Shown: positions 1,698 to 30,830 of the stretch, piece by piece
How the letters are laid out: every line of letters begins with the position of its first letter
Position numbering within the stretch: position 1 is the stretch's first letter
DNA from: an uncultured Rubritalea sp.
GTDB taxonomy: Bacteria; Verrucomicrobiota; Verrucomicrobiia; Verrucomicrobiales; Akkermansiaceae
Reading direction: 5' to 3'
DNA length: 64,000 nucleotides
Assembly (NCBI GenBank): GCA_937923145.1
Contig: CALAJT010000009.1
Span: 1 to 64,000, forward strand
The notes under the pieces: generated by a model
The model's input: the letters and a program-made list of their open reading frames with translations, nothing else
Database searches by the model: none
What the model was told of the DNA's origin: nothing
Program-made: the position numbers and the translations under genes

Positions 1698-2219
1698 ATG
1701 CTGCTCGGACTTGAAGGCTTTGAGGGCCACGTGATGCCTTATCTTGTTCTCAGACTCATTCATTTAATTGGAGATCTTGGCGCAGTTACAGATGACAAAT
1801 TCGACCCACAGGCGAGTATTCGCAAACACACTACTAAAATAGCGAGTCGGAGGATGCGAAAGGAACTCACTGCTGGAAATATCATTCCTTTGATTTTGGA
1901 ACTGAAGGAATTTTTGAGTAAGACTCCTGAGCGACTGAATGGTGTATTTGAAAAGCTATCTAAGAACCAAATGTGGTTCAAGGTGGACACTATTGATGAG
2001 CAAGTTTTCTTAAAAGGACTCTACCAAGTGGCTAACAGGATCACTGTTGGACTGATCGTTTCTGCACTGATCATTGGTGCTGCTATGATGATGAATATTG
2101 AAACTCAGTTTAAGGTTTTCGGTTATCCTGGACTGGCTATTCTGATGTTCTTAGCTGCTGCCATATTTGGTTTGTATCTCTTTGTCAAAATTTTCATTAC
2201 TGATGCCAAGGATGAATGA
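1698..2219 (+). pseudogene. C-terminal fragment of a UbiB/AarF-family kinase-like protein
   Basis: The 173 residues resemble only the end of ABC1/UbiB/AarF proteins: a helical stretch, then the linker, then two closing membrane helices at about residues 117-134 and 144-165. Full-length members are about 500-560 residues and carry the kinase-like core ahead of this part, which is missing here. The frame stays open upstream only to about 1638, where the IS110 flank begins, and nothing in 1-560 encodes the missing part. The fragment was probably cut off by IS insertion followed by deletion, or by a rearrangement joining the cassette array to this locus. The assignment rests on pattern recognition of the C-terminal region. 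Confidence 0.6.
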
Positions 2220-3350
2220 TTAGCTCCAGCATTCCTCATCTAGCATCCAGAAGTAGCTTACTAGCTTTATTTCTAATTCTAGGAGTTGATAAATTTTGAA
2301 TTGATTTTCGATCATTTGAGGAGTGATAGGATCGCCTTGTTTAGATTTCAACATTGCGATTTTGGTCTGAGTGTTCTTCAGCTCTCTCCATTTTTTGAGC
2401 ATCATTCTGACTTCATTCCTCATTCCAGATTGTTTTTCTCCAGTGGCTGCTATGTTACTTTGGAATTCTTGAATACCTAGGGATGTCTTGATAGAGTTCA
2501 TTCCTGGCACTACTGGCTTATTTTCTTTGTGTTGTTTACTTAGCTGAGTAGCTAACTCTTGTGAATGTCTGAGTGCTCTCCAGCGTTGCCATTGATGGAA
2601 CTGTGGATCGTTTACTTCTCTGTAGAGAGTGAGGCTATTGTTGGTGTCTTTGAAATCTACATCATAGTATTCAGCGTTGAAAAACTGTCTTACTGAATTG
2701 AGCCAATCTCTCCTGTTTGCTTGGCAGGCTATACGCTTCTTTATAAGTAGATTTTCTAGTTTCGGCCGTCCAACTACGAGTTCTTGGTATTTTTTTAATA
2801 GGCTTTCTTGTTCCTTTATCACTTGCTCCTGCCTAAAAAATACATGCAGTTTGACCATTTGCGTACGCATTGTCTTTTCTGCTGCAACAGCCTGAACGAT
2901 CCTACTCCACTCTTTCTGCTCTAGTGAGTGTGATACATTTTTAAGATCTGTTAGGGACTTGAGACGCTTTGGTAGCTCTCCCACAGGGTTATTGATAGCC
3001 TTGGCTATTTCCTTAGGGTTGAGTGTCTGAGTGGCTGTATTGGAAAGGCTTCTCTTTAGCTCGTGAGTGACATTTTTAACCAGCCCATTATTGGCACTTG
3101 CTTCTGATTGGGTAGTTAGAGCTTTTCTATATTCAGGATTACGTTCTAGCATCAGCTTAGTAGCGTCAGTCCATGAGAGCGTGACCTTCTCGAACGGTGA
3201 CTGTGCTTTTAGCTCACGTGCATAATTTTGACCACGTGTCTGGAAAATTTTATCTAGTTGGTGCTTCACCTCCTTGTGTGCACATTGGCTGAGCAGTCCT
3301 ACTACACATGCCCACAGTATGTAGTGTATACTACTAATCCCGTATTTCAT
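2220..3350 (-). CDS. Lipoprotein with coiled-coil helices, distant resemblance to TolC-type outer membrane proteins
   Basis: This 376-residue protein starts with a hydrophobic leader ending in a lipobox, LLSQC, near residue 22, so it is probably lipidated and anchored to a membrane. A following segment, LSWTDATKLMLERNPEYRKA, resembles the start of outer-membrane efflux proteins, where the first long helix packs into the channel. The rest is charged, helical and coiled-coil-like, but there is no second TolC repeat and no beta barrel is evident. Its stop codon abuts the end of the convergent ubiB fragment. The cdaA gene lies upstream on the same strand, 76 bases away. The exact function is unknown. 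Confidence 0.75.
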   Translation of the reverse strand: MKYGISSIHYILWACVVGLLSQCAHKEVKHQLDKIFQTRGQNYARELKAQSPFEKVTLSWTDATKLMLERNPEYRKALTTQSEASANNGLVKNVTHELKRSLSNTATQTLNPKEIAKAINNPVGELPKRLKSLTDLKNVSHSLEQKEWSRIVQAVAAEKTMRTQMVKLHVFFRQEQVIKEQESLLKKYQELVVGRPKLENLLIKKRIACQANRRDWLNSVRQFFNAEYYDVDFKDTNNSLTLYREVNDPQFHQWQRWRALRHSQELATQLSKQHKENKPVVPGMNSIKTSLGIQEFQSNIAATGEKQSGMRNEVRMMLKKWRELKNTQTKIAMLKSKQGDPITPQMIENQFKIYQLLELEIKLVSYFWMLDEECWS

Positions 3351-3426
3351 AAACCATAGATACGAGTCGGATTAATTTATTCTATCAATCCTTACTATAT
3401 TTATGGGTTAGACATCGAGTTGGTTC

Positions 3427-4284
3427 TTAATCAGGAACCATATCGCTATCGCTAGGATCAAGGCCGTTATCTTCGCTATCCAGTGCTTCGTCAGCATCTC
3501 GGATATCTTGTTCGTTATCGGTTTCTGGTTTTTCATCTGGTATAAATATTTTTTCGAGTTTTTCTCTGAATTCTTTTTCTTCTAACTTTCGTTCTAAGAC
3601 ACCATTCACTGCTATGGAGATAGAGCCTGTTTCCTCACTAACAACAATTGCTACTGCATCGGTCTCTTCAGATATACCGCATGCGGCACGGTGCCTTAGA
3701 CCTAGTGTCCTGTCAGCCATCTCATTTTTACTTAGTGGGAATACACACCCGGCTGAGGCGATACGATCCTTTGCTAAGACCATGCCACCATCGTGTAATG
3801 CTGTCATCGGGAAGAATATTGTGAGGGCTACTTCTGAGGAAAAGAGAGAATCAAGACGGACACCATTATCTGAATATTCTTTTAAGCTGATCTCACGCTC
3901 TAGCGCTATCAGAGCACCTATCCTCTTATGGGATAGCTGGAGTATTGCATCTGTAAGTTCTTCTGCAAATTCAAGTTTATGAGTTTTATTAAACATTAGA
4001 AACCTACTGCTACCTAGTCTAGCTAAGGCTGCGCGTAACTCTGGCTGGAATACGATGACTAGTGCGAAGGCTATACCTAATGCTGAGCGTAGTAGAATCC
4101 ATGCGATGACAGTTAGATTAAACAAATAAGCCATGGTGGTTATCACTGCCAAAATCATGACTACACCTACGAAAATCCTAGCTCCCCTGGTAGCACGGAA
4201 TGTCTTGTAAAGGGTGTAAAGACCTACCCATAGGATAAGAATCTCAATCCCTGCTGTCCAGTGCTCTTCCAAAAACTTCATCAT
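3427..4284 (-). CDS. cdaA: Diadenylate cyclase CdaA (c-di-AMP synthase)
   Basis: CdaA joins two ATP molecules into the second messenger c-di-AMP at the inner membrane. The 285-residue protein has three N-terminal membrane helices (about residues 12-29, 37-56 and 60-80) and then the DAC domain. The two active-site motifs are visible: LHDGG near residue 164, where most members have DGA, and LRHRA near 195. The acidic tail beyond residue 255 (DxxDxDxEDN-type) is not part of the catalytic domain. The usual partner ybbR/cdaR does not follow; a lipoprotein gene does. In many bacteria c-di-AMP controls potassium, osmolyte and cell-wall balance. The gene is divergent from hprK, with about 105 bases between them. 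Confidence 0.95.
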   Translation of the reverse strand: MMKFLEEHWTAGIEILILWVGLYTLYKTFRATRGARIFVGVVMILAVITTMAYLFNLTVIAWILLRSALGIAFALVIVFQPELRAALARLGSSRFLMFNKTHKLEFAEELTDAILQLSHKRIGALIALEREISLKEYSDNGVRLDSLFSSEVALTIFFPMTALHDGGMVLAKDRIASAGCVFPLSKNEMADRTLGLRHRAACGISEETDAVAIVVSEETGSISIAVNGVLERKLEEKEFREKLEKIFIPDEKPETDNEQDIRDADEALDSEDNGLDPSDSDMVPD

Positions 4285-4390
4285 TAGGGTGTGAGCTTAA
4301 CAAAACTACTGTTCTATGCCAGAGTAAATCACACATTTATCAAAGAGAATGCATAGCTAAGAGATTTTTCTTTGGCAAACAGGGACTCAT

Positions 4391-24213: not shown

Positions 24214-26298
24214 ATGTCTGATCTCAGCAAATACAGAAACATTGGAATCTTCGCCCACGTGGACGCAGGCAAGACCACCACCACAGAGCGTATCCTTAAA
24301 CTCACTGGTAAGGTGCACAAAACTGGTGAAGTTCACGATGGTGAAGCCACCACTGACTTCATGGAACAAGAGCAGGAGCGTGGTATCACGATTCAATCTG
24401 CGGCTACTTCATGTTTCTGGGACGATCACCGTTTCAACATCATCGATACTCCAGGACACGTTGACTTCACAGTAGAAGTTTATCGTTCACTTAAGGTTCT
24501 CGACGGTGGCGTAGGTGTATTCTGTGCTTCAGGCGGAGTTGAGCCTCAGTCAGAGACTAACTGGCGTTATGCTAACGAATCTAAAGTTGCACGTGTTATT
24601 TTCATCAACAAGATGGATCGTGTTGGCGCTAGCTTCCTAGGAGTTGTAGACCAGATCAAGAACATCCTTGCAGCTAAGCCACTCATCATGGTTCTTCCTA
24701 TCGGAGCTGAGAACGACCTCAAAGGAGTCGTTGATCTTCTCACTATGAAAGCATGGGTATGGGACGATTCAGGTCTTCCAGAGAACTACGAGATCTTAGA
24801 CATACCAGCTGACATGGCTGATGAGTGTGCAAAATACCGCGCAGAAATGATCGAGACTGCTGTAGAGCAAGACGACGAGCTAATGATGGAATACCTAGAA
24901 GGCAACGAGCCATCTATAGATGATCTTAAGAAGTGCATCCGTAAAGGAACTATCGCACTCGACTTCTTCCCTACATACTGTGGATCAGCATTCAAAAACA
25001 AAGGTATCCAGAACGTCCTCAACGCTGTTGTTGACTTCCTACCATCACCTACTGAAGTTCCACCTCAGCCAGAAGTGGATGAAGAAGGAACTGAGACTGG
25101 TGAATTTGCTATCGTTTCTGCTGACAAGCCACTCCGTGCACTTGCATTCAAAATCATGGATGACAAATACGGAGCACTTACATTCACACGTATCTACTCA
25201 GGTATCCTTAAAAAAGGTGACACTATCCTCAACACATTTACAGGTAAAACTGAGCGTGTAGGACGTCTCGTAGAGATGCACGCTGATGACCGTATTGAGC
25301 TTGATCAAGCACAAGCTGGTGACATCATCGCGCTTGTAGGTCTTAAGAACGTTCAGACTGGTCACACACTCTGTGATCCTATGCACCCTGCTACTCTTGA
25401 GCCTATGGTATTCCCTGAGCCAGTGATCTCCATCGCTGTTGCTCCTATCGATAAAGCAAACGCTGAGAAACTTGGCACAGCTATTGGTAAGATGGTTAAG
25501 GAAGATCCTACATTCATCGTAGAAACTGACGAAGACTCAGGCGAGACTATCCTTAAAGGAATGGGTGAACTTCACCTCGACATTAAGGTAGACATTCTCA
25601 AGAGAACTCATGGTGTAGAAGTAACTGTAGGTGCACCACAGGTGGCATACAGAGAGACTATCACTAAGACTATCTCAGACAGCTACACTCACAAGAAGCA
25701 GTCTGGTGGTTCTGGTCAGTATGGTAAGATCGACTACACTATCGAGCCAGGTGAGCCAAACTCAGGCTTCGAATTCGAAGCAACTGTAGTTGGTGGAAGT
25801 GTTCCTAAGGAATTCTGGCCAGCAATTAAGAAAGGTTTCGAAACTTCAATGGTAAAAGGTGTTCTTGCAGGATACCCACTACTTGACGTTAAAGTAACAC
25901 TTACAGATGGTGGACAGCACGCTGTTGACTCATCTGCTGTAGCATTCGAAATCGCTGCTAGAGGTGGATATCGTCAGACTATCCCTAAAGCTGGACCACA
26001 GATCCTAGAGCCTATCATGAAGCTCGACGTATTCACTCCTGAAGATCACGTAGGTGATGTGATCGGTGACCTTAACCGTCGTAGAGGAATGATCCAGGCA
26101 CAGGAGACTACACCTACTGGTGTTCGCATCAAGGCAGAAGCTTCTCTCTCAGAGATGTTCGGATACATCGGTGACCTTAGAACAATGACATCAGGTCGTG
26201 GACAGTTCTCTATGGAGTTCTCACACTACGCAGCATGTCCTAAGAACATCGCTGACCAAGTCATCAAAGAAGCTGCCGAGCGCGATGCTGCTAAGTAA
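24214..26298 (+). CDS. fusA: Elongation factor G
   Basis: EF-G is the GTPase that drives translocation on the ribosome. The 694-residue protein has all five domains. The G domain shows [18 protein letters not shown] (P-loop), [17 protein letters not shown] (switch I), DTPGHVDF and NKMDRVG. Domain IV shows YRETITKTI and the conserved GGGQ-like [10 protein letters not shown] tip. The length fits the family. It stands alone with its own terminator, not in the str operon with rpsL, rpsG and tuf. Confidence 0.98.
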
Positions 26299-26345
26299 GC
26301 TTTAAAGTGACGGAGGTTTCCAACCTCCTAGTCAAACAAATTACT

Positions 26346-26382
26346 AAGCCGTTTTGGATCACTCCAAAACGGCTTTTTTACG
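26346..26382 (+). terminator. Terminator after fusA
   Basis: AAGCCGTTTTGG (26346-26357) pairs with CCAAAACGGCTT (26363-26374), followed by TTTTTA. A second shorter hairpin (GGAGGTTTCCAACCTCC at about 26311-26327) lies between this and the fusA stop. Confidence 0.93.
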
Positions 26383-26443
26383 CCTATTTTAGCACCAAAA
26401 ACAACAAATCATAACCCATTCATAAAAAACTACTTGTGAATTC

Positions 26444-26627
26444 CAATTTAAATATAGCTGGAACTCTACTTTAAAAATAGCGGGATTTAAATATACACTA
26501 TAGCTACACTATAAATATAAAAATAGCAGGACTACTAATATAATTATAGCGATCATTCTATTTTAAAAATAGCGGGATTAATAATTTGACTTTAGCGAGT
26601 AATCTAGTTTAAATATAGCTGGAGATA
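26444..26627 (+). repeat. Eight imperfect repeats with an exact 23-bp period upstream of a DUF4143 ATPase gene
   Basis: TAGC occurs at 26455, 26478, 26501, 26524, 26547, 26570, 26593 and 26616, seven equal steps of 23 bases. Taking each unit as 11 + TAGC + 8 bases, the eight units are invariant at unit positions 2 (A), 8 (A) and 12-15 (TAGC). The commonest unit reads TANTTTAAAWA, then TAGC, then KGGA, with little conservation after that. Units 1, 2, 6 and 8 are closest to this; 3, 5 and 7 are the most divergent. There are no spacers, so it is not a CRISPR. The array ends 17 bases before the ATG of the ATPase gene and starts about 60 bases after the fusA terminator. Likely roles are a set of protein-binding sites or iterons overlapping the promoter. 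Confidence 0.9.
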
Positions 26628-26644
26628 AATATCCGTAAAATTCG

Positions 26645-27898
26645 ATGGAACACACTCGCTGGCAAGAACAAAGCATCATCCAAGCACTCGCACACAGGCG
26701 CATCATCCTACTAGCGGGAGCTCGTCAGTGCGGGAAAACCACTCTAGCCAAACAGCTCGGAATCACTCTCACTAAAAGCCCATCTGCATCAGATCCTATC
26801 TACTACACTCTGGATGATGTCACTCTGCTCGATGCCGCACTTCTGGACCCCAAAGGATTTGTCAGCCACGGTGATGAACTCATGATTATAGATGAAGTCC
26901 AGCGGGCGCCTCGACTACTCTTATCTATCAAACAAAGCGTCGATGAAAATACCGCCATGGGCAGATACCTGCTCACAGGTTCAGCGAACATTCAGGCTCT
27001 CCCTAGCGTCAGTGAATCACTAGCTGGCAGAGTCCGCAAGATAGCACTTAAGCCACTCGCACAGGGAGAAATAATGGGAACTAAACCAGACTTCCTCCGC
27101 AATGCACTGCAGCAGAAATTTACTAAAACTAAAAGCAACTACAGCAAAGACGACTACCTAGATCTCGCCTTCAAAGGTGGCTACCCAGAAGCTCTAGTCA
27201 CTAAAAACATCAAAGATCGCAAACGCTGGCACCATGATTATATCAACGCTATACTAGACAGAGACCTTAAGGATATAGCTCAGATCAGACGTAAGGACAG
27301 TATACGCAAACTAGTAGAAGTTCTCGCTGCTTGGTCATCTAAATACATGGACATTTCTAGTATTGGTCAGATGCTCTCCATCACTAGACCTACGGTAGAA
27401 AGCTACATCAATGCCCTCGAAGCTCTCTTCATCATCGACCGTATCCCTGCATGGCACAGCACGGATTACGATCGAGTCAGCAAGCAAGAAAAGATGTTCT
27501 TAGTCGACACAGGACTCATCACCTCCATGCTAGGATGGACCCCTGAGAAAGTGCGTTTAGATGGTTCACTCAATGGTAAGCTCATCGAAAGCTACGTCTA
27601 CAACCAGCTCATCGCCATTCTAACTGCAGACGATGATGAATACGAACTTTACCATTACCGCGACCGTGAGAAACGTGAAGTAGACTTTATCATCCAGCAC
27701 GAAGACGGTAGTATATTAGGTATCGAAGTAAAAGCTGGCTCAGCTGTCAGCAAAGACTCCTTTAAACACTTGAAATGGTTCCGAGATAGAATGGCAAAAG
27801 AGAATCCATTCACAGGCATCGTCCTCTATACAGGAGAGCACACTGTCCCCTTTGGAGAAGGCATGTGGGCAGTGCCGATCAGTGCTATGTGGTCTTAA
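26645..27898 (+). CDS. AAA family ATPase with DUF4143 domain
   Basis: The 417-residue protein has a P-loop, GARQCGKT (residues 25-32, Lys31), a Walker B-like LMIIDEVQ near residue 80 and LLTGSAN near residue 110, all in the AAA_14-type domain. The second half is the DUF4143 domain, with a winged-helix-like middle and a closing segment REVDFIIQHEDG...GIEVKAG whose D-x(n)-ExK spacing recalls PD-(D/E)XK nucleases. The family is widespread, but its cellular role is not settled. The gene stands alone downstream of fusA and directly follows the 23-bp repeat array, which suggests that the array controls it or is bound by its product. Confidence 0.92.
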   Translation: MEHTRWQEQSIIQALAHRRIILLAGARQCGKTTLAKQLGITLTKSPSASDPIYYTLDDVTLLDAALLDPKGFVSHGDELMIIDEVQRAPRLLLSIKQSVDENTAMGRYLLTGSANIQALPSVSESLAGRVRKIALKPLAQGEIMGTKPDFLRNALQQKFTKTKSNYSKDDYLDLAFKGGYPEALVTKNIKDRKRWHHDYINAILDRDLKDIAQIRRKDSIRKLVEVLAAWSSKYMDISSIGQMLSITRPTVESYINALEALFIIDRIPAWHSTDYDRVSKQEKMFLVDTGLITSMLGWTPEKVRLDGSLNGKLIESYVYNQLIAILTADDDEYELYHYRDREKREVDFIIQHEDGSILGIEVKAGSAVSKDSFKHLKWFRDRMAKENPFTGIVLYTGEHTVPFGEGMWAVPISAMWS

Positions 27899-30341: not shown

Positions 30342-30830
30342 CTATGGTTGCTCTGGAGCAGTTTCCTCAGCTGGTGCTGGTGAGGGTGCTGGTGCTGGTG
30401 CTGGTGAGGGTGCTGGTGTAGTTGTAGGTGTTTCAGCTTCTTCCTCAGTAGGTGCTGGTGTTTCACCTTCTGTAGTTTCTTCCTCTGGCATTGGAGCGAG
30501 AGCATCTGCATTCTCTGCAAGTTGTGATTCACTATCAGCAGCTACTTCTTTATCGATTCCGTTACTCTTAGACTTAGCACCTACTAGCACAGACAGCGCT
30601 AGAGTTACGATGAAGAGTAATGTGCCCAGATAAACTGTGCCTTTTTGGAGAACATCAGTCGTTCTAGCTCCGAAAGCCTGATCAGTCATACCGCCACCAA
30701 ATGCAGCGCCGAGTCCTTCTTGTTTAGGACGTTGCATAAGCACTACGAGGCAAAGGAGTAAACACACTGCAACGTGAACTACGAGGAGCACGTTCGTAAA
30801 AATGGAGTTCATATCTGCTAAAATTATCAT
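30342..30830 (-). CDS. secG: Protein-export membrane protein SecG with a long acidic, Ala/Pro-rich tail
   Basis: SecG is the small subunit of the SecYEG channel. The first 85 residues fit SecG: two membrane helices (about 10-30 and 62-82) with VVLMQRPKQEGLGAAFGGG between them. The rest is a Glu, Thr, Ala and Pro-rich low-complexity tail with alternating Pro-Ala repeats (PAPSPAPAPAPSPAPAEE), much longer than in model SecG proteins. The first Met (30830) or Met7 (30812, MNSIF) may be the start. The DNA of the tail is a run of near-identical 6-base repeats (GCTGGT or similar) and is prone to slippage. Confidence 0.9.
   Translation of the reverse strand: MIILADMNSIFTNVLLVVHVAVCLLLCLVVLMQRPKQEGLGAAFGGGMTDQAFGARTTDVLQKGTVYLGTLLFIVTLALSVLVGAKSKSNGIDKEVAADSESQLAENADALAPMPEEETTEGETPAPTEEEAETPTTTPAPSPAPAPAPSPAPAEETAPEQP

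Follow-up and report, generated by a model that had tools for sequence, protein, structure and literature searches.

Direct repeats at the promoter of a defence gene are known from the RptR system, in which a defence-island promoter carries three 9-bp direct repeats with the palindrome TAGCTA, two of which overlap the -10, and the repressor is a small dedicated dimer encoded at that defence island (excerpted text of PMC12255303). In addition, toxin-antitoxin and controller-protein loci, as treated in the same excerpts, combine a potentially harmful enzyme with a promoter that is repressed by the locus's own product (PMC12255303). PDC-S01, an ATPase fused to a PD-(D/E)XK domain, is abundant (PMC12988326, PMC13356809), and most PDCs still await validation (PMC12988326); an upstream array is unmentioned for PDC-S01 in the excerpts of these two sources.

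The locus analysed here lies in the window, i.e., the whole 64,000-nucleotide stretch from an uncultured Rubritalea sp., where eight direct repeats precede a PDC-S01-type ATPase gene. The likeness to the RptR system as excerpted consists of direct repeats at the putative promoter of a candidate defence gene and, by proposal, a repressor that is encoded at the locus and binds them. Unlike that system (9 bp, three repeats), the family of the window has 22-23-bp units, up to eight of them, in front of an ATPase-nuclease gene, and its motif varies within the family. An RptR operator was rejected as the identity of the array, given the 23-bp unit and the occurrence of TAGCTA in one of the eight units. 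The excerpted toxin-antitoxin and controller-protein loci are similar in their compactness, their potentially harmful enzyme and, by proposal, self-repression; they use a separate antitoxin or C protein, whereas at the ATPase locus a single protein would be both effector and repressor. Such arrays were not described in the literature searched, outside of which lay most subscription journals and preprints, and a prior description elsewhere is possible. We regard it as quite probable that the array is an autoregulatory operator bound by the ATPase itself and serving negative autoregulation.

The repeat array and the adjacent ATPase gene

The window array sits between a stem-loop behind fusA and the ATPase start codon at 26645, with the following features:

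26346..26375, no strand assigned: stem-loop separating fusA from the array, called as a minus-strand terminator; on the plus strand, too, a T run follows it
26443..26465, plus strand: repeat unit 1, core TAGC at 26455-26458
26466..26488, plus strand: repeat unit 2, core at 26478-26481
26489..26511, plus strand: repeat unit 3, core at 26501-26504, diverged 5' of the core
26512..26534, plus strand: repeat unit 4, core at 26524-26527
26535..26557, plus strand: repeat unit 5, core at 26547-26550
26558..26580, plus strand: repeat unit 6, core at 26570-26573
26581..26603, plus strand: repeat unit 7, the penultimate one, off consensus to the -35-like TTGACT, the related locus L015 departing likewise
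26586..26591, plus strand: putative -35 TTGACT, inferred, 5/6 of the consensus
26604..26626, plus strand: repeat unit 8, the last, ending 18 bases 5' of the ATG
26609..26614, plus strand: putative -10 TTAAAT, inferred, 17 bp after the -35, 4/6
26645..27898, plus strand: PDC-S01 / AAA_14-DUF4143 ATPase, 417 aa (Pfam, PADLOC)
26666..27109, plus strand: AAA+ domain, about residues 8-155, Walker A G30 K31, Walker B D83 E84
27293..27502, plus strand: predicted winged helix, about residues 217-286 (AlphaFold2 model, mean pLDDT 79.8)
27563..27892, plus strand: PD-(D/E)XK-like domain, about residues 307-416, with E315, D347, E361 and K363, following the published PDC-S01 domain assignment as excerpted

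The preliminary description had reported eight TAGC cores at exactly equal 23-base steps, and this was borne out: the cores start at 26455, 26478, 26501, 26524, 26547, 26570, 26593 and 26616, giving seven exact 23-bp steps, and the longest in-phase run of a 4-mer in the window at steps 15-40 was eight, versus at most four when the window (40 times) or the local AT-rich stretch (1000 times) was shuffled. The other details given there were likewise recovered, with 6 of 23 columns invariant on a recount of the eight units, a 17-base gap to the start codon when counted from 26627, exact TTTAAA 5' of the core in four of the eight units (the other four having A/T-rich variants) and GGA 3' of the core in five of the eight. 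Shuffles gave on average 0.01 matches to a three-core pattern that matched six times in the window; the rest of the 2.70-Mb assembly to which the window belongs (53 contigs, 92% complete) had none. Single TTWAAWWATAGC sites numbered 18 in this assembly, four of them inside the array, compared with six for the reversed control.

The encoded protein matched PF13173 (AAA_14; E 1.9e-25) and PF13635 (DUF4143; E 1.2e-41) in Pfam and, over residues 3-417, the PADLOC model PDLC04790 (PDC-S01; E 1.3e-144), indicating that the gene is a candidate anti-phage ATPase of the PDC-S01 class. K31, D83, E84, E315 and D347 were kept in all 149 aligned rows, and E361 and K363 in 148 of 149. A PDB sequence search with the ATPase returned no match at E <= 1. 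Its structural matches include TnsC and MuB, as well as the archaeal ATPases PABY2304 (2qen) and SSO1545 (2fna), which have 16-17% sequence identity to it and whose aligned range ends before its PD-(D/E)XK-like part; STAND proteins, e.g., NLRs and CED-4, scored within about 1 Z of 2qen and 2fna. The winged-helix assignment rests on the order of helices and strands in the AlphaFold2 model, as read by the author, and the winged helices of STAND-type ATPases frequently do not serve as DNA-binding elements. A second DUF4143 ATPase of the same genome (L027, contig C14, 376 aa) had no direct-repeat array upstream (score 3).

Arrays, steps and motifs across the family

The first 12 relatives fetched came from Verrucomicrobiota, Pseudomonadota, Melainabacteria and Bacteroidota records, and their upstream DNA, read by eye, contained repeats with differing cores. 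A free array detector (14-mers, at most 4 mismatches, steps 18-48) gave nine of these 12 a score of at least 7, the remaining L016, L017 and L018 scoring 2-4. Exact TAGC triples matched in 8 of 189 genomes of the host's order (six matches in the window's own genome, one or two in each of seven others) and were no commoner there than the reversed control pattern; since relatives use other cores, the exact-motif scan is the wrong test.

The free detector was then applied to a sample of 150 loci from several phyla, each with at least 200 bp of upstream DNA, an array being called at a score of at least 6. Arrays were found upstream of 67 of the 150 loci, versus downstream of 4 of 139 (within 311 bp), and 24 of 9000 shuffles reached this score; when 12 Rhizobiaceae rows that are close relatives were set aside, the upstream figure was 56 of 138. 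As the loci were chosen by similarity to the query, these fractions describe this sample. The preliminary description had named a lack of arrays upstream of relatives and spacing expected by chance as points that would count against it; relatives do have arrays, and chance does not account for the spacing. In total, 151 proteins had entered the sample, with L119 (two ORFs), L027 (domain match only), L100 (partial) and L188 (53 bp upstream) omitted; L054 (179 bp upstream) lay outside the 150 loci, and L097 and L115, with detector scores of 4 and 0, lay outside the sample. In L119 (Asticcacaulis excentricus plasmid, 2857-4015), the relative is annotated as a pair of ORFs that overlap, seemingly from a broken gene, and an array was not detected.

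In a tree of 149 proteins, from which L066 (one in-frame stop) and L157 (short) were omitted, 63 of the 67 arrays fell in one group of 84 rows (SH-aLRT 98), 'group' here denoting one side of a branch because the tree was a quick one with a midpoint root and without bootstrap. The sister set had arrays in 2 of 20 rows, another set in 0 of 34 and the remaining rows in 2 of 11. The array label required 20 changes on the tree versus 49.3 when shuffled, near-copies adding to this clustering. Within the array group, 21 of the 84 members were under the array threshold, and fainter repeats were seen by eye in the below-threshold members L042, L117, L138 and L018; conversely, some called arrays hold short-period repeats (L171, L166 and partly L152).

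The step is nearly constant. A step-count detector, which admits 20-24 bp only, slightly prefers 22 and passes scores of at least 9, accepted 63 of the 84 array-group members, and 197 of their 208 steps, within that restricted range, were 22 or 23 bp, with one single step throughout 49 of the 63 arrays. Because of this restriction the free detector (18-48 bp, tolerance 1) matters, and its nominal period was 20-23 in 62 of the 63 group arrays, the window having a nominal period of 45, about twice 23. The 63 tree arrays (free detector, at least 6) and the 63 step-counted arrays (at least 9) are different sets with 60 members in common. The step is 23 throughout the window and L015, and 22 nearly throughout the Rhizobiaceae rows. 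When the window was set against L015 (proteins 85% identical), all six TAGC cores compared were equal and several spacer columns differed. We regard the array as almost certainly a genuine element that is conserved and specific to the subfamily.

Motifs were compared among 58 of the 63 step-counted arrays (L171, L158, L114, L107 and L153 being omitted). Core AATAGCGGG occurs in the window and L015, with the variant AATAGCGG in L019; AATCGCGGG in L020, L023 and L132; AATTGGACG in L039 and L060; CATTTGGACG in L041 and L098; AATCTGCCGA in L177 and L186; AATCAGCCG in L187 and L142; and TTTCAA..GGTCA in Rhizobiaceae. Across the 1603 pairs with less than 80% identity, motif similarity rose with that of the proteins (rho 0.548), as it did between host groups only (rho 0.545, 1263 pairs), where host groups were taken from the search that yielded each locus, L024 (labelled Micavibrio; Bdellovibrionota according to the tree tool) being grouped with Alphaproteobacteria; none of 2000 within-group permutations was as high (maximum 0.213). 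For 37 of the 58 arrays, the best cross-group motif match came from a protein ranking in the upper 10% by identity, and L167 had no good motif match outside its host group. Moreover, eight same-genome paralogue pairs were tried, four of which had both arrays in the set: L164 and L187 have unlike motifs, each nearer to a relative elsewhere; L098 and L108 were scored unlike, with a GACG end common by eye; L036 and L062 are moderately alike; and the near-identical L163 and L184 have the same motif. At the level of sequence, the repeat tracks the ATPase and not the host, and the correlation could in part arise from shared descent of the gene and its upstream DNA.

These comparisons bear on the possibility that some other host regulator or a nucleoid protein binds the array and controls the ATPase, the ATPase itself not binding. 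A sliding-window partial correlation over the protein agrees with that possibility insofar as the winged helix was not singled out, its windows being only mildly positive, and the strongest residue windows were 335-348 and 193-209. A host factor is nevertheless unlikely, given a motif that follows the ATPase across host groups, paralogues such as L164 and L187 with unlike motifs in one genome, and an assembly without any other three-core array.

Genomic setting and mobility

In the window, the array and ATPase are flanked by fusA and by a 108-aa ORF that has no Pfam match. Similarity between the window and the Rubritalea MAG locus L015 runs from fusA through the end of the ATPase gene and no farther; in L015, an LmuB-like (Lamassu) protein lies beside the fusA-array-ATPase unit (2165-4177; E 7.2e-21), and it is absent from this position in the window. 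Among five relatives behind fusA (L079-L083), the first part of L079 not being covered, the sole match was 68 bp at the fusA end of L080, and because this was all, insertion ends behind fusA were not placeable. Elsewhere in the window, at 30370-30430, a tandem repeat of GCTGGT type with period 6/12/24 overlaps a minus-strand ORF of 162 aa whose tail is rich in Ala and Pro.

Comparison by blastn of three Rhizobiaceae loci with the other eleven revealed about 1.3-1.65 kb in common, comprising the array, the gene and mostly a tail of about 95 bp, beyond which there were just two short upstream matches (66 and 60 bp) and a 156-bp stretch. The neighbours differed in all annotated Rhizobiaceae loci (8 of 12, the other four records being without annotation there). 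With array and gene conserved together and the DNA beyond them differing, the gene travels with its array in Rhizobiaceae. In addition, toxin-antitoxin genes occur near the ATPase in L118, L125 and L127. The Rhizobiaceae plasmid module ends about 95 bp past the stop codon at the sequence GGTTCGATTCCCTTCAA, found at these positions:

about 4284-4310: GGTTCGATTCCCTTCAA module-end site, at least 16/18 positions, in 9 of 12 loci (L120, L122-L125, L127, L128, L130, L131)
about 2670-2791: upstream copy like GGTTCGATTCCCTTCAA, at least 14/18, in 4 of 12 loci (L122, L123, L127, L128)

A further GGTTCGATTCCCTTCAA-like copy was located at 5713 in L127. We take GGTTCGATTCCCTTCAA to resemble a tRNA T-arm; ARAGORN found no tRNA in these Rhizobiaceae loci, and GGTTCGATTCCCTTCAA may mark a cassette-like integration site.

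This setting invites the reading that the array is a cis site for a moving or replicating gene (a transposon end, an integration site or an iteron), with the ATPase being TnsC- or Rep-like. The gene's presence in distant hosts and varied contexts, the discrete Rhizobiaceae module of array, gene and tail, the TnsC and MuB structural matches, and the IS3 transposase genes near the ATPase in L123 and L124 are consistent with it. We judge it improbable, however, since the repeats lie on the upstream side, a -35-like hexamer holds a fixed place within them, the ATPase is the sole annotated gene in the module of about 1.6 kb, the ends of this module differ in sequence from the array, and L015 keeps the window's place behind fusA. 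Tn7-like transposons have repeat arrays at both ends, and two-ended arrays of that kind were rejected on the upstream and downstream counts (67/150 vs 4/139, within 311 bp). An iteron origin was likewise rejected, there being no Rep gene adjacent (fusA and the 108-aa ORF) and the ATPase matching AAA_14/DUF4143 and no Rep family.

Possible promoter overlap and proposed autoregulation

The spacing of -35 and -10 elements, a 6-bp hexamer plus a 17-bp spacer, is near the 22-23-bp step. A strict promoter scan missed the weak TTGACT/TTAAAT pair of the window and reported two minus-strand sites versus 1.4 expected. Across the arrays, TTGAC was present in 16 of 63 penultimate units versus 6 of 208 other units, ten of the 16 cases being Rhizobiaceae and the rest L023, L015, the window, L121, L045 and L146. 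In 36 of 63 arrays, the predicted best sigma-70-like pair lay in the two units nearest the gene, and the mean promoter score was 9.51 versus 8.78 when shuffled (sd 0.85), a modest excess; A/T-rich repeats favour such scores. The 3' end of the array tends to overlap promoter-like elements, as far as such predictions go. That the repeats are themselves tandem promoter elements or an RNA leader, with the 23-bp step mirroring the -35/-10 spacing, accords with a step of hexamer plus 17-bp spacer and with A/T parts of the units resembling promoter hexamers, but it is highly improbable in view of conserved columns that include a G/C-containing core (TAGC in the window, GCCG and GACG elsewhere), which is no RNA polymerase element, the up to eight units per array and, for an RNA element, the lack of any Rfam match at E <= 1 in 26200-26800.

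The palindrome is the classic operator form, and long palindromes, with up to 16 paired positions, were observed within about 90 bp of the start of DUF4143 ATPases outside the array group (L101, L104, L106, L110, L144, L156, L159, L161 and others). Inverted repeats above the 95% shuffle level in the roughly 90 bp upstream were present in the sister set at 11 of 20 loci, in the third set at 11 of 34 and in the array group at 6 of 84. It looks like one family whose branches differ in operator form, some having palindromes and another direct repeats. In a comparison of array half-sites with promoters from the other groups, at most 2 of 40 shuffles were as good in 10 of 54 loci, against an estimated expectation of about four, so that a likeness between the direct-repeat and palindromic forms is suggestive only.

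Among the three options of the preliminary description, the operator array and the target of the ATPase itself are supported jointly by the recurrence, the promoter coincidence and the tracking of the ATPase, and the iteron-like site is not. In the autoregulatory operator that we favour from these comparisons of sequence, the ATPase is likely to bind the array, and this binding probably represses, judging from its position. Each 22-23-bp unit would be bound head to tail, most likely via the winged helix and perhaps via other surfaces, and because the step is nearly constant, the bound copies would stand at a fixed rotational offset and could contact each other. The last two units would coincide with the -35 and -10 positions, at which they tend to sit, and their occupancy would therefore block RNA polymerase and keep the ATPase-nuclease at a low level, with repression presumably being lifted when the ATPase is titrated, switched or lost. 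A further-reaching version, which we hold to be doubtful, is that this gene, one of the most frequent candidate defence genes, forms a self-sensing single-gene switch, in which a head-to-tail oligomer of the ATPase-nuclease on the helically phased array at its own promoter would both store and silence the enzyme, and a disturbance by infection would induce the gene and release active protein; repeat and protein would co-diversify into many mutually insulated versions able to coexist in one genome. Viral contigs were also scanned for two-unit motifs as possible decoys; none of the 39 stretches obtained matched any of the 149 ATPases in tblastn at E <= 1e-8, and viral stretches with array-like scores were rejected as decoys, resembling by eye plain tandem duplications or other repeats.

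The DUF4143/PDC-S01 gene encodes a common yet uncharacterised bacterial ATPase-nuclease, and with a conserved DNA site specific to the subfamily, these proteins would gain a ligand open to testing, as the array would show which DNA to offer the ATPase and which array pairs with which protein. Furthermore, direct-repeat and palindromic operator forms would become comparable within one family. The results suggest that a large part of the array group has a control element of its own, a point of relevance to heterologous defence screens, where these genes may be cloned with or without their native promoter.
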